Shown piece after piece: positions 2,294-54,168 of a DNA stretch of 64,000 bases. Source of the stretch: Xanthostigma xanthostigma (taxonomy: Eukaryota > Arthropoda > Insecta > Raphidioptera > Raphidiidae). A model generated the notes under the pieces. It saw nothing but the letters and a program-made list of their open reading frames with translations. It did not search any database and was not told the origin of the DNA. Within the stretch, counting starts at the first letter, position 1. The number at the start of each line of letters is the position of its first letter. Made by a program: the position numbers and the translations under genes. The stretch covers positions 6,922,001 through 6,986,000 of the forward strand of contig OY754466.1 of the NCBI GenBank assembly GCA_963575645.1. Reading direction: 5' to 3'.

Positions 2294-3236
2294 GTAGTTT
2301 AAAAAAAACTAAAAAACACGCTTTATATCGAACTAAAAAGTAAAAAATATTTTTTTTAAATGAGCTTAAAACAATAATGAAAAAAATTGGTTTTCTGTAA
2401 AGTCGGTTTACGGACGATAGTTTTACGTGATAACGTATTCCGTAATACATAACCTAAACCTCCCAAAATTTGGTTTCAATCCGCTTATCCTTGGTGTCGG
2501 AATGATAAGAAATGTCAAAAGTGACGTTTGCAACTTACAAAGTAGGTATTATGTTCTAATAATAATTAGTTATTCCAATACTTAACTTAGAAGGCGTTGC
2601 ATTTCACAATATACTAATGTCAAAAAATTGAATTAAACATTAGAAATGCAGCCGTTTTCATGTTAAGACAAGACATACGTTTGCTTCTAATTTCCATGTA
2701 CGGCAAACAAAGACGACCGACCGCGTCGCGCCATGCATTAGACAACATTGCATTTATACAGCTATTTTTCTATATAAATTTGTATAAAAAAACTGTTTAG
2801 GCAAATTCTGTTATACGAAATCTATGTAAAAAGTTCTCCTCTTTCGTTTAAGACTGGTTTCAAACCGATCTGATTTAAATTGAGCGAGAAATTAGCAAAA
2901 AGCACGCACAGGGTCAGGCGGAACGTTACGCGTTACGAACGTTATGATTTAGGAACGTTACACTTTTTCGTGCAAGCAGCCGGTGTTTTATCAATTTATA
3001 AGATTGGTGATTCATCAATTTATAAGACGTTATCACGTCAAAAAAATACAAGTATTATTGTGAAAAAAGCGTGGGGCGCTTTGTTCCACATTTTCGTACA
3101 TCGAGCGCCCCACGCTTTTTTCACAATAATATTTGTATTTTTTATTCATTATTGTTTTAAGCTTATTTTAAAAAAAAATTTTTTTAGTTTTTAGTTCGAT
3201 ATAAAGCGTGTTTTTTAGTTTTTTTTAAAACTATAT
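2294..3236. mobile_element. Hairpin element family A, copy 1 (split by family B)
   Basis: Long foldback element. The left arm (2294-2386) reads TAGTTTAAAAAAAACTAAAA, then CACGCTTTATATCGAAC. The right part (3042-3236) holds the central hairpin GCGTGGGGCGC / GCGCCCCACGC and the complementary outer arm. Family B (2387-3041) interrupts the left arm in an A-run, and the unbroken arm is readable at 13978-14170. On the minus strand this copy follows a tRNA-like module (3285-3373), the same order as in two other copies. Confidence 0.75.
2387..3041 (-). mobile_element. Family B non-autonomous element, copy 1
   Basis: 655-bp element. On its own strand the family starts TTGACGTGATAACGTC and ends ACTTTACAGACAACCA; here it lies reversed. 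The two ends are not full inverted repeats, but both carry an ACGTGATAACGT block. It contains the family hallmarks GGGTCAGGCGGAACGTTACG and CCGGTGTTTTATC. It shares nearly its full length with copy 2 (14171-14837). No open frame of note. Superfamily unknown. Confidence 0.75.
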
Positions 3237-8966: not shown

Positions 8967-9170
8967 GGTTTGTTCCGTTGGATAGTAGTGGGGGATGACG
9001 TCATCCGGCGGATTTGTCAAATGATTGCGAGGCGACGGCTGTTGTTTATCCATATTCTATGTTTTGATTTCAATGACATTTGTTAATTGACGTGTTATAC
9101 GCAACTGACGTTGCTTCGCAATAATTTGACAGGTCCACCGGATGACGTCATCCAACGGAACGAGGCAACC
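8967..9170. mobile_element. 204-bp inverted-repeat element
   Basis: The outer ends pair (GGTTTGTTCCGTTGGAT versus the complement of ATCCAACGGAACGAGGCAACC). Inside, both arms carry the self-complementary GGATGACGTCATCC followed by GTCAAAT-ATTGCGA. The left arm has a ~9-bp insert (AGTAGTGGG) absent from the right. Non-coding MITE; TSD not clear. Confidence 0.65.
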
Positions 9171-13977: not shown

Positions 13978-14935
13978 TATAGTTTAAATAAAACTAAAAA
14001 AACACGCTTTATATCGAACTAAAAAGTAAAAAATATTTTTTTTTAAATAAGCTTAAAACAATAATGAATAAAAAATACTAGTATTATTGTGAAAAAAGCG
14101 TGGGGCGCTTTGTTCCACATTTTCGTACATCGAGCGCCCCACGCTTTTTTCACAATAATACTAGTATTTTTTGACGTGATAACGTCTTATAAATTGATGA
14201 ATCACCAATATTATAAATTGATAAAACACCGGCTGCATGTTCGAAAAAGTGTAACGTAACGTTCCTAACGTTCCTAACGTTCCGCCTGACCCTGTGCGTG
14301 CTTTTTGCTAATTTCTCGCTCAATTTAAATCAGATCGGTTTGAAACCAGTCTTAAACGAAAGAGGAGAACATTTTACATAGATTTCGTATAACAGAATTT
14401 GCCTAAACAGTTTTTTTATACAAATTTATATAGAAAAATATTTTATACAAATTTATATAGAAAAATAGCTGTATAAATGCAATGTTGGTAATGCATGGCG
14501 CGACGCGGTCGGTTGTCTTTGTTTGCCGTACATGGAAATTAGAAGCAAACGTATGTCTTGTCTTAACATGAAAACAGCTGCATTTCTAATGTTTAATTCA
14601 ATTTTTTGACATTAGTATATTGTGAAATGCAAAGCCTGCTAAGTTAAGTATTGGAATAACTAATTATTATTAGAACATAATACTTTGTAAGTTGCAAACG
14701 TCACTTTTGACATTTCTTATCATTCCGACACCAAGGATAAGCGGATTGAAACCAAATTTTGGGAGGTTTAGGTTATGTATTACGGAATACGTTATCACGT
14801 AAAACTATCGTCCGTAAACCGACTTTACAGACAACCATTTTTTTTTATTCATTATTGTTTTAAGCTTATTTTAAAAAAATATTTTTTACTTTTTAGTTCG
14901 ATATAAAGCGTGTATTTTAGTTTTTTTAAACTATA
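13978..14935. mobile_element. Hairpin element family A, copy 2 (split by family B)
   Basis: The left arm, the central hairpin (GCGTGGGGCGCTTTGTTCC, then GAGCGCCCCACGC) and the beginning of the right arm run uninterrupted to 14170. Family B then separates off the rest of the right arm (14838-14935). The whole arrangement mirrors 2294-3236 in opposite orientation. The tRNA-like module follows at 15000-15089. Confidence 0.75.
14171..14837 (+). mobile_element. Family B element, copy 2
   Basis: 667 bp, nearly full-length match to copy 1 in reverse orientation. Starts TTGACGTGATAACGTC and ends AAACCGACTTTACAGACAACCA-type sequence. It sits in the T-run of ACTAGTATTTTTTATTC, which is the complement of the insertion site used by copy 1. 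A short internal duplication (TATACAAATTTATATAGAAA twice) is specific to this copy. Confidence 0.75.
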
Positions 14936-25924: not shown

Positions 25925-26294
25925 TTATTTCTGACAGATCTATAAAACAAAAGAACAGCTGACATTTTTTTTTTGTTTTCAAAATATTTCCGAAACTATA
26001 AAGTTTAGAAAAAAAATGTTTTAACAAAACTTTCTTGAATAAAACAAATTGAATAATATATACCGTTATGAAAAGTATACCATTATTACATTTTCCCCAA
26101 AAACAATAGGGCTTTTCATATTTGCGTAACAATTATCGCTTCCAAAATTTGGTTTCTAATCCGTTTGATATGTATCATGCTCATAGACTAACAGACAAAC
26201 AGACGCACAAATTTTACCAAAAATATGTTTTTTTGTTTCGGAATCCCTCAAAACGAACAGATATTGTAAAAGTGATTTTTGACCTAAACTAGTT
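25925..26294 (+). repeat. Repeat family D, uninterrupted copy
   Basis: Matches 27805-28140 plus 28740-28800. Blocks: TTCTGACAGATCTA, ATATTTCCGAAACTATAAAG, CCGTTATGAAAA-TATACC, ATTTGGTTTCTAATCCG, GACAAACAGACGCACA, TCAAAACGAACAGATATTGT. This copy has no insertion at the point where the other is split by family B, so it serves as an empty site. Possibly a retroelement 3' region; class not certain. Confidence 0.6.
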
Positions 26295-27804: not shown

Positions 27805-28800
27805 TTCTGACAGATCTACAGAACAAAATAACAGCTGATTTTTTTTATTTTCAAAATATTTCCGAAACTATAAAGTTTAGAAAAAAATTTTTTTAACAAA
27901 AATTTCTTGAAAATATAAATGGGATAACAAGCCGTTATGAAAAATATACCATTATTATATAAAAAAACACCGTTATAGCATATATGTCTTTTGCGCATGC
28001 GCCGATTTCTTCCAAAAACAGCAGAGCTCTTCATATTTGCTTTTCAAACATCTACCTAAAATTTGGTTTCAATCCGTCTATCCGTTTGACCTGTATCGTG
28101 TTCAAAGACAAACAGACGCACAGAGGTTTACAAAAAAAAAATTGGTTGTCTGTAAAGTCGGTTTACGGACGATAGTTTTACGTGATAACGTATTCCGTAA
28201 TACATAACCTAAATTCTACATAAAATAATTATAATAATTCGAATCTATGATATTGCATCTTTCGCTTCAAATTTAGGTTAATTTTATTTATTTAAATTAC
28301 TCACCATATAATATAATTGTTTTTTTTAACTTTCTTTCTTTCGTATTTATTTTAAGTCTCAAAGATTAGCTGTCATAATATTTATAAAACAATTGTTTCA
28401 CTGTTTATAATATAAAATTCCAAAACCTACTTACAATATTTAAGTATTTTCATACGTCAAAAAATTGATTTTTATAATGATAAAATTTGTAAGATAACGA
28501 TTTTTTCGAGAGATGAGACCTAGCTAAAACGATTTTTTGCCCCCCAAAATCCCTTTTCAGTAAATTTCATCCAAATCGTTAGGGCCGTTTTCGAGAAAAG
28601 CACGCACAGGGTCAGGCGGAACGTTACGCGTTACGCGTTACGAACGTTAGGAACGTTACACTTTTTCGTGCATGCAGCCGGTGTTTTATCAATTTATAAG
28701 ATTGGTGATTCATCAATTTATAAGACGTTATCACGTCAATATGTTTTTTTGGATTCGGGTGACCTCAAAACGAACAGATATTGTACAATTTTTACTTAAA
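27805..28800 (+). repeat. Repeat family D, copy split by family B
   Basis: 27805-28140 and 28740-28800 together correspond to the continuous copy at 25925-26294. The break falls in the A-run after ACAGACGCACAGAGG, and the text resumes with TATGTTTTTTTGG and CAAAACGAACAGATATTG. It has a short extra AT-rich stretch near 27955 compared with the other copy. Confidence 0.6.
28141..28739 (-). mobile_element. Family B element, copy 3 (different interior)
   Basis: Both family B ends are present (TTGGTTGTCTGTAAAGTCGG at the left; GACGTTATCACGTCAA at the right, with GGGTCAGGCGGAACGTTACG before it). The middle (28215-28595) is unrelated to copies 1 and 2. Family D at 25925 gives the empty site. The conserved ends with a replaced interior are typical of non-autonomous elements mobilised in trans. 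Confidence 0.7.
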
Positions 28801-33284: not shown

Positions 33285-33727
33285 CACGACTCTGATTTAA
33301 GAAGGTCTTATTAATAATGTCTTTTGTTCTACCATCTTTTGCAAAAACATAAGAGATTTTGTGGATTCGATACACGTAAGGAAGGCCGTGCGAAAAACAT
33401 GGTTTGTTCTAAATGAATGCCAGCTACTTTAAGTGTTTGCCCCTGGGCTTTGTTTATGATTATTCCAAAAAGACTTTTTAATGGAAAATGTAATCTTTTA
33501 AATTGAAAAGACAAATCCGTTGGTATAATTGGTATTCGTGGTATTAAAACACTGCCTCCTTTAGATTTGCCACTAAATATAATTGCCCTAACAATATTTC
33601 GACCCAGATGGGAAACTTGTAAACGTTTTCCGTTACACAATTTAGGCGCATCAAGAATTCGCATTAAAAGTACCGGAACATCCACTTTTAACCTTAATTT
33701 ATGAGAATTTATTTTAATTTTTATCAA
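33285..33727 (-). pseudogene. Helitron helicase C-terminal relic (PIF1-like)
   Basis: A 132-codon minus frame encodes the C-terminal end of a Helitron Rep/helicase. Visible conserved stretches are LDAPKLCNGKRL, VRAIIFSGKSKGG, PRIPIIPTDLSFQFKR and GIIINKAQGQTLKVAGI, the last holding a late superfamily-1 helicase motif. The frame then shifts near 33350, and the expected tail (FAKDGRTKDIINK) continues in another frame. Rep, the Walker motifs and everything upstream are missing. A small Helitron end (33728) abuts its upstream side. Confidence 0.8.
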
Positions 33728-35146: not shown

Positions 35147-36185
35147 GCCGGTTTTATAAATGTCAGTTTAAATTTAATTGATGATAAAAAAAATGCAGAG
35201 TTAACTGCATCGAAAAAATTGAAAATGTTTTTGACGTGATAACGTCTTATAAATTAATGAAACACCAGCTGCACGCACGAAAAAGTGTAACGCCGTAACG
35301 TTCCGCCTGACCCTGTGCGTGCAAGCGAGAGCGCAGTATAAGCGATAGAGAAGCACGATCGGCCCAAGTTTGACAGCTACTAAAATTTAGGTTATGTATT
35401 ATTAAATATGATATTCGAGCGGAATACGTTATCACGTAAAACTATCGTCCGTAAACCGACTTTACAGACAATCAATTTTTTTTTTTCGATTTACTTATTT
35501 GGGATTAAAAATATTTTATTAGTCGGGTTTTATAAGCGCTAGTTAACTTTTAATTGATGATAAAAAAATGCTGAGTTTACCATCGACAAAATTAAAAATG
35601 TTTTTTGCGATTTATTTAAGCTTAAAAAATATTCTATTGGTCGGGTTTTATAAAGGTTAGTTAACATTTAATTGATGATAAAAAAAATGCCGAGTTGACG
35701 ATCGACAAAATTAAAAATGTTTTTTTGCGATTTATTTGAGTTTAAAAATCATTCTACTGGCCGGTTTTATAAACGTTAGTAAAAATTTAACTGATAAGTA
35801 ACTAAAATAATCGCTTAACTGGACAGTTTACAACCCTTAGAACAGCGCACTGGTGACTTATTTTATAATCCTTTGTTAAAATATAGGTGATACAGTTTAT
35901 CTTCGACAAATTAAAAATGTTTTTGCCATTTAGTTTGAGCTTAACACAAACTAAACGGTTTTATAAACCTCCTGTTACAATTTAATTGTAAGTTTATGAT
36001 CGAGTAACGATTGGAACATTATGTTTATTGTCTAGAAAAGCGCATTAAAAATAATAGCCTGTTTTGTAAAACTCAGTTAAATTTTAATTGGCAACTAAAT
36101 TTAGTGCTTTTGGAAAAACATCCAAAAGAATGCAATAATATACTATAAGGACTGATTTTATAAACATCACTTAAAATTTAACTGG
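35147..36185 (+). repeat. Diverged ~120-bp tandem array, split by family B
   Basis: Seven occurrences of a GGTTTTATAAACGTTAGTTA-like motif start near 35149, 35525, 35643, 35763, 35956, 36060 and 36164. Between them recur AATTTAATTGATGATAAAAA, ATCGACAAAATTAAAAATGT and TTGCGATTTATTTGAG-like segments. Spacing is about 104-120 bp, except where family B (35231-35474) is inserted and one longer interval. No frame runs through the array. Confidence 0.65.
35231..35474 (+). mobile_element. Family B element, copy 4 (244 bp)
   Basis: Starts TTGACGTGATAACGTC and ends AAACCGACTTTACAGACAATCA-type text. It keeps CGTTCCGCCTGACCCTGTGC and the GCAAGCGAGAGCGCAGTAT stretch shared with copy 6. It is inserted in the T-run of the array unit AAAATGTTTTTTGCGATTTA, which is readable intact in the next unit. 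Confidence 0.75.
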
Positions 36186-51445: not shown

Positions 51446-51636
51446 TGGTTGTCTGTAAAGTCGGTTTACGGACGATAGTTTTACGTGATAACGTATTCCG
51501 CTCGAATATCATATTTAATAATCACGCACAGGATCAGGCGGAACGTTAGGTAGGTTACACTTTTTCGTGCATGCAGCCGGTGTTTCATCTTTTTATATTG
51601 ACGTGATTCATCAATTTATAAGACGTTATCACGTCA
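51446..51636 (-). mobile_element. Family B element, copy 5 (191 bp)
   Basis: TGGTTGTCTGTAAAGTCGG at the left and GACGTTATCACGTCAA at the right, with CACGCACAGGATCAGGCGG and CCGGTGTTTCATC between. It is inserted in the A-run of GTGAAAAAAGCG in family A. One of the shortest forms of the family. Confidence 0.75.
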
Positions 51637-51676
51637 AAAAAAAACTCGGGTCGCAGTGCGAAACCCTGCCGACAAT

Positions 51677-53952: not shown

Positions 53953-54163
53953 TTGACGTGATAACGTCTTATAAATTGATGAAACACCAGCTGCACGCAC
54001 GAAAAAATGTAACGTTCGTAACGTTCCGCCTGACCCTGTGCGTGCAAGCGAGAGCGCAGTATGCTTCGGCCCAAGTTTGACAGCTACTAAAATTTAAGTT
54101 ATGTATTACGGAATACGTTATCACGTAAAACTATCGTCCGTAAACCGACTTTACAGACAACCA
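53953..54163 (+). mobile_element. Family B element, copy 6 (211 bp)
   Basis: Starts TTGACGTGATAACGTC and ends ACTTTACAGACAACCA, with CGTTCCGCCTGACCCTGTGC and GCAAGCGAGAGCGCAGTAT inside as in copy 4. T-runs lie on both sides. Five bases further on, the element at 54169 begins. Confidence 0.75.
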
Positions 54164-54168
54164 TTTTT

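Follow-up and report, generated by a model that had tools for sequence, protein, structure and literature searches.

A T-run-inserted repeat of Xanthostigma xanthostigma with the anatomy of a non-autonomous Helentron and a broken coding relative

Introduction

Canonical Helitrons begin with TC, end in CTRR and insert between A and T. The A|T target also appears in a passage of PMC5148889, a paper on FoHeli of Fusarium oxysporum, an element placed there in the Helitron2 group, which includes the Helentrons. Non-autonomous Helentrons (HINEs) are characterised, in the relevant sections of PMC4067079 (Thomas, Vadnagara and Pritham 2014), by palindromic sub-terminal repeats of 12-15 bp, at distances of 2-4 nt (5' end) and 38-60 nt (3' end), by a 3' palindrome, and by insertion into T-rich targets with at least 2 T at each end, a variable number of T's and no target modification. 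The same sections give the S in the Rep motif RG(S)PHxH as diagnostic of Helentrons, and call the origin of the T's and their split between the two ends unclear.

The window analysed here is a stretch of 64,000 nt of X. xanthostigma (GCA_963575645.1, contig OY754466.1, positions 6,922,001 to 6,986,000), in which a first-pass annotation had described "family B", six copies of a mobile repeat with asymmetric ends that lie in T-runs in one orientation, and had left the family unplaced. The ends, the target and a coding relative (locus L053) now identify family B, very probably, as a HINE, that is, a non-autonomous, DINE-1-like Helentron of the Helitron2 group mobilised in trans by a Rep-PIF1 helicase-endonuclease. 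This places a repeat that is very abundant in the genome and ties it to a coding relative; because so many of its copies are similar, with T's that can be counted on each side, the repeat forms a good natural data set on the choice of T-runs and the source of the extra T's.

Results and Discussion

Copies in the window and anatomy of their ends

BLAST within the window, together with end motifs, recovered all six copies where the annotation had put them, in size classes of about 190-250, 600 and 655 bp. Each is listed below as a probable HINE copy; the first was also delimited by inspection of the sequence.

28142 to 28737 (title coordinates 28141-28739), minus strand: copy under study (title copy), about 600-bp class, T-runs excluded; 42 genomic matches with the 599-bp copy as query
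2387 to 3041, minus strand: copy of the about 655-bp class, within family A
14171 to 14840, plus strand: copy of the about 660-bp class, within family A; end approximate, a few A/T of the run included
35231 to 35479, plus strand: copy of the 240-bp class, within a 119-bp array unit
51446 to 51637, minus strand: copy of the short class
53953 to 54165, plus strand: copy of the short class

The motif TTGACGTG occurs eight times in the window, against 1.4 expected, and six of these occurrences are family B ends; the other two, at 9087 and 51598, are not element ends, the latter falling inside the 51446 copy. Read on the TTGACGTG strand, the title copy consists of T's, then GACGTGATAACGTC..., ...ACGTTATCACGTAAAACTATCGTCCGTAAACCGACTTTACAGACAACCAA and then a T-run, and the ends of the family are GACGTG...CCAA. 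The features of these ends, from the sequence together with folding prediction or, for the last, a T count, are as follows.

28725 to 28736, minus strand: 5' sub-terminal inverted repeat ACGTGATAACGT, a near-palindrome
28180 to 28191, minus strand: 3' counterpart of this repeat, reading ACGTTATCACGT on this strand, with 38 nt to the end of CCAA
28148 to 28170, minus strand: predicted 3' stem-loop GTCCGTAAA-CCGAC-TTTACAGAC
28132 to 28141, minus strand: 3' flanking T-run, 10 T after CCAA on the element strand

The 12-bp ACGTGATAACGT is palindromic at 10 of its 12 positions, and its 5' copy lies one base inside the G of GACGT, so that a single base, together with the T's, separates it from the 5' end. 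The stem-loop pairs 9-bp arms, with one mismatch, around a loop of 5 nt. It follows the second repeat on the way to the 3' end and stops 6 nt short of the T-run. Folding prediction shows both hairpins, and the energy of the whole stem-loop segment is no better than that of its shuffles (z about -0.5). The ends are asymmetric and are not terminal inverted repeats or LTRs, as first described, but they do carry a 12-bp inverted repeat, which is sub-terminal and asymmetric in position.

Compared by description, family B resembles the HINE-Mo families of Metaseiulus, as these are presented in PMC4067079, in its near-palindromic 12-bp sub-terminal repeats at matching distances, its 3' palindrome, its T-rich target with variable T number and no other target modification reported, its lack of coding capacity and its high copy number. 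The stem-loop is slightly closer to the T-run (6 nt) than the 8-35 stated there for HINEs, and the T's on the 3' side are more numerous (median 8) than the 2-5 given for Culex elements. DINE-1/INE-1 of Drosophila shares sub-terminal repeats, a 3' stem-loop, a preference for TT and very high copy number with family B; unlike family B, it is described in the same source as having non-palindromic sub-terminal repeats, with a core block plus an additional inverted repeat. FoHeli, by the account in PMC5148889, has similarly asymmetric terminal inverted repeats, whereas FoHeli1 and FoHeli2 prefer TNAT|A, with no variation in T number observed in that study at their 3' ends. T-run preference and asymmetric ends are already described features of HINEs.

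Target and orientation across the genome

On the strand starting with TTGACGTG, both ends of all six window copies are flanked by T's, which agrees with the annotation. The genome (623 Mb in 28 contigs) was then represented by loci picked for similarity to the window copies, a non-random sample that gave a first set of 48 paired copies, of which 46 were scored (two being too close to the end of the locus), and an enlarged set of 87 paired copies, of which 85 were scored; L087 and a copy nested in L053 failed the boundary rule, and both of these are also preceded by TTTTT. A T-run of 5-14 (median 8) follows the 3' end in all 85 scored copies, in one of which two letters separate CCAA from the run, and at least 4 T precede the 5' end in 81, with exactly 5 T in 40. 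At 200,000 random window positions, the probability of finding 4 or more T 5' of the position was 0.027, and that of 5 or more T 3' of it was 0.013. At least 2 T stand at each end in 84 of the 85, the exception being L037 (1 T on the 5' side), and seven unpaired ends likewise abut T-runs of 4-10. The single orientation that had been claimed holds in that the run is on the same element strand in all 85 copies, but the 5' side shows just 1-2 T in four of them (L007, L020, L037 and the title copy itself). Direct duplication past the 5' T-run was seen in 0 of the 46 scored copies of the first set. Together with the anatomy of the ends, the 85 of 85 copies bear out a mobile family with asymmetric ends, T-run targeting and fixed orientation.

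For the first 46 copies, the numbers of T's at the 5' and 3' ends were anticorrelated (Spearman -0.49, P = 0.0005), and for all 85 they were more weakly so (-0.22, P = 0.04); by class, the correlation was -0.33 (P = 0.03) among 43 copies of the 240-bp class and absent (-0.04) among 38 of the long class. As the anticorrelation weakened from 46 to 85 copies, we gave it no weight.

A coding relative with the same ends

The Helitron Rep domain, used as a query against the genome, gave 89 matches, 15 of which were examined as eight short loci (L039-L046) and seven ten-kilobase stretches (L047, L048, L049, L050, L053, L054 and L055). L053 (C5:10934400-10944390, minus strand) holds both family B ends about 7.1 kb apart:

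C5:10936342-10943474, minus strand: 7.1-kb element with family B ends, from end-sequence comparison

This element is flanked by 5 T and 6 T, and it matches the 240-bp class at 88% over 138 bp of the 5' end and at 98% over 54 bp of the 3' end. Between its ends lie a 1162-aa frame with DUF6570 and Helitron_like_N (Rep) domains, a 152-aa PIF1 piece and, at L053:2660-2910, a nested family B copy in the opposite orientation. The Rep motif is RGSPH, IEFQHRGSPHAH, and thus has the S diagnostic of Helentrons. Two endonuclease pieces were recognised by blastp alone, against L047 and L048; for the 89-aa remnant, blastp without composition correction gave E values of 6e-6 and 4e-5 to L047 and L048, and no Pfam domain was found in that remnant as it stands. 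Compared with L047-L049, the element has lost a portion of the helicase and the central part of the endonuclease by internal deletion, and L053 is therefore a broken relative of the source rather than the source; given the 88% over its 5' end, it is also not the direct parent of the 240-bp class. The annotation had suggested looking for a long copy that codes for the mobilising enzyme, and such a copy with the same ends exists, although in broken form; an intact partner with family B ends was not found among the 15 of 89 Rep matches examined.

L047-L050 contain long frames with DUF6570, Rep and PIF1; L047, L048 and L049 carry RGSPH as well as endonuclease-family matches, all under the Pfam curated cut-off, and a search of L050 for an RG(S)PH-type motif gave no match. 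Family B ends were not found in the stretches of roughly 10 kb examined for L047-L050, inverted repeats flanking their frames gave no convincing ends, and a weak match to the 5' motif in L050 falls inside its frame. RGLPH is found in L039-L046, L054 and L055.

Empty sites and the added T's

The annotation had treated uninterrupted repeats in the window as empty sites. Paralogous empty sites were compared either with the flanks joined or, better, with each flank aligned separately. Among the window copies, an empty site could be assigned to 28141 in family D (about 74% identical), to 2387 and 14171 in family A and to 35231 in the array units; none was established for 51446 or 53953.

26200 to 26240, no strand assigned: family D site without the 28141 insertion, reading CATATTTTTGG on the element strand, from flank comparison

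Under a strict rule, by which both flank alignments must reach the run, eight copies qualify, with paralogues that are 72-99% identical on either flank and T-runs that are prone to slip. Four of these sites are pure T. Giving the empty run and then the 5'|3' counts of the filled site, they read T6 to 5|6 in L062 (three paralogues agree), T5 to 5|5 in L090 (two paralogues, the run exactly doubled), T7 to 5|8 in L015 and T6 to 6|9 in the window copy at 14171, for which a third paralogue reads TTTTTG. The gains are 5, 5, 6 and 9; the 5' count is never above the empty run, and the gain is larger than the 5' count in two of the four, so that duplication of the run alone would be insufficient without slippage. 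The four other strict sites, L056 (ATTTTT), L085, L016 and window 2387, are not pure T, and some paralogues of L056 have longer runs. A looser list points the same way: T5 to 2|10 in the title copy, T6 or T7 to 5|11 in 35231, T6 to 5|7 in L031, T5 to 5|8 in L036 and T8 to 7|9 in L073. In this small sample, with exceptions, the sites suggest that insertion adds about 5-10 T's, chiefly on the 3' side.

At L085, L016 and window 2387, the filled site lacks a few bases that the paralogues have between the T's and the 3' flank, and L079 is similar under the looser rule; at the three strict sites these could be small deletions at the 3' junction or differences among the paralogues.

Identity of family B and competing explanations

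The sub-terminal repeats and their distances, the T-rich target and the lack of non-T duplication (0 of 46, with a few target bases missing at some empty sites) are those of HINEs, and an autonomous partner with Rep, PIF1 and AP endonuclease and the same ends is represented, among the 15 Rep matches examined, by the broken L053. A SINE or other retroposon that ends in T's when read from TTGACGTG, and that uses target-primed reverse transcription to enter A/T runs, would likewise have a variable-length T tail and lie in T-runs, but this is very unlikely when none of 46 copies has a duplication beyond the T-run and when the same two ends bound the 7.1-kb Rep/helicase element. The content of that element is also at odds with a MITE that moves by cut and paste and duplicates a short T-run as its target. 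One clean empty site, L090, with its run of five doubled in comparison with two paralogues, is what such a MITE would leave; however, the added T's outnumber the 5' run at two of the four pure-T sites under the strict rule and at all five given above from the looser list. Terminal inverted repeats and a fixed-length duplication, as looked for in family B, are both absent, the very ends lacking an inverted repeat, the repeat being sub-terminal at the 3' side and the gain varying, and we regard a MITE as extremely improbable.

Derivation from a canonical Helitron has in its favour that 34 of the 89 Rep matches lie in long frames of 1498-1620 aa and that RGLPH occurs in the eight such loci examined, L039-L046. 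Against it, the TC and CTRR ends and the A|T target were looked for in family B and not found, its ends being GACGTG...CCAA and its target a T-run, and L053, which shares these ends, has RGSPH and endonuclease remnants; a canonical origin is accordingly scarcely credible. The content of L053, the end letters, the T-run target and the T gains thus led us to reject all three of these explanations. The annotation had named, as evidence against its own reading, a match to some catalogued family of known mechanism. Such a match was found for the kind of element, but the mechanism set out in PMC4067079 is in those sections itself a hypothesis.

For family B as a HINE, the sequences themselves show the anatomy of the ends, the T-run target and its orientation, the extra T's without duplication past the run, and a broken coding element that shares the ends; we infer the enzymatic steps, circularity and which copy would have supplied the enzyme. 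Rep would recognise the sub-terminal repeat and the 3' stem-loop and detach one strand, from which a single-stranded or circular copy would arise; the endonuclease would nick within a T-run, and the copy, with its own T's, would be joined at the nicked run. The expected outcome would be no duplication except for extra T's, and an orientation to the run that is always the same. A more specific and rather doubtful proposal is tail-primed joining, in which the 5' end would be joined inside the target T-run without new T's and the 3' end would bring its own tract of about 5-10 T, sometimes with loss of a few 3' target bases. Two sites run counter to this proposal, with 7 T on the 5' side of window 2387 against an empty run of 6 and 6 T on the 5' side of L079 against 5 in two paralogues. 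The longer runs in paralogues of L056, an unreadable site at L006, the divergence of the strict-site paralogues and the slippage of T-runs weigh against it as well. If true, tail-primed joining would answer the question, raised in the sections of PMC4067079 on HINEs, of which end owns the T's, and the endonuclease together with the T tail would amount to a targeting device.

Interiors, copy number and neighbouring Rep elements

That interiors differ between copies, as the annotation had said, holds. The interior of the 600-bp class (title-copy positions 103-459) occurs without the ends in L051 (88%) and partly in L052 (94%), the shared sequence reaching as far as the edge of the conserved 5' module, and for the 655-bp class the interior has a 77% identical match in L048, in sequence downstream of the L048 frame. 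We read the interiors as sequences that the element may have captured. L051:3018-3735 and L052:3043-3328 form a separate repeat, which comprises the 600-bp-class interior and a further 51 bp and has no HINE ends.

A first look with the 249-bp copy (271-base query) gave 2167 candidates in the genome; the best 40 of these 2167, chosen by score and including the window's own copy, are 97-100% identical, which suggests that the 240-bp class may have spread recently. When the last 146 bases of the window copy were used to query the genome, no candidates came back, as is possible with very common words. The two end sequences had no match in viral contigs, and four end motifs, searched for letter by letter in papers, likewise had none.

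The 34 Rep matches in frames of 1498-1620 aa are stop-free, and many have identical scores (e.g., L039-L046); this suggests that a canonical Helitron family was probably active recently in the same genome. In L047, a 2376-aa Helentron frame (L047:1460-8587) ends in a ubiquitin hydrolase domain, which lies C-terminal to the weak endonuclease match, and L050 has an OTU protease match in place of that hydrolase. Between two Rep pieces of a canonical Helitron, L054:3560-8357 (minus strand) holds frames of 986 and 339 aa; the 986-aa frame, which we take by impression to be a non-LTR retrotransposon, may for that reason be an insertion into the Helitron. Finally, a 132-aa frame with a Pif1 2B domain lies in the window itself (33329-33727, minus strand). 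It is 42% identical over 106 aa to the canonical Helitron L055, versus 31-42% over 24-49 aa to the Helentrons L047-L050; being closest to L055 among the proteins compared, it was set aside as a partner of family B and is, on this similarity, a decayed Helitron helicase fragment.
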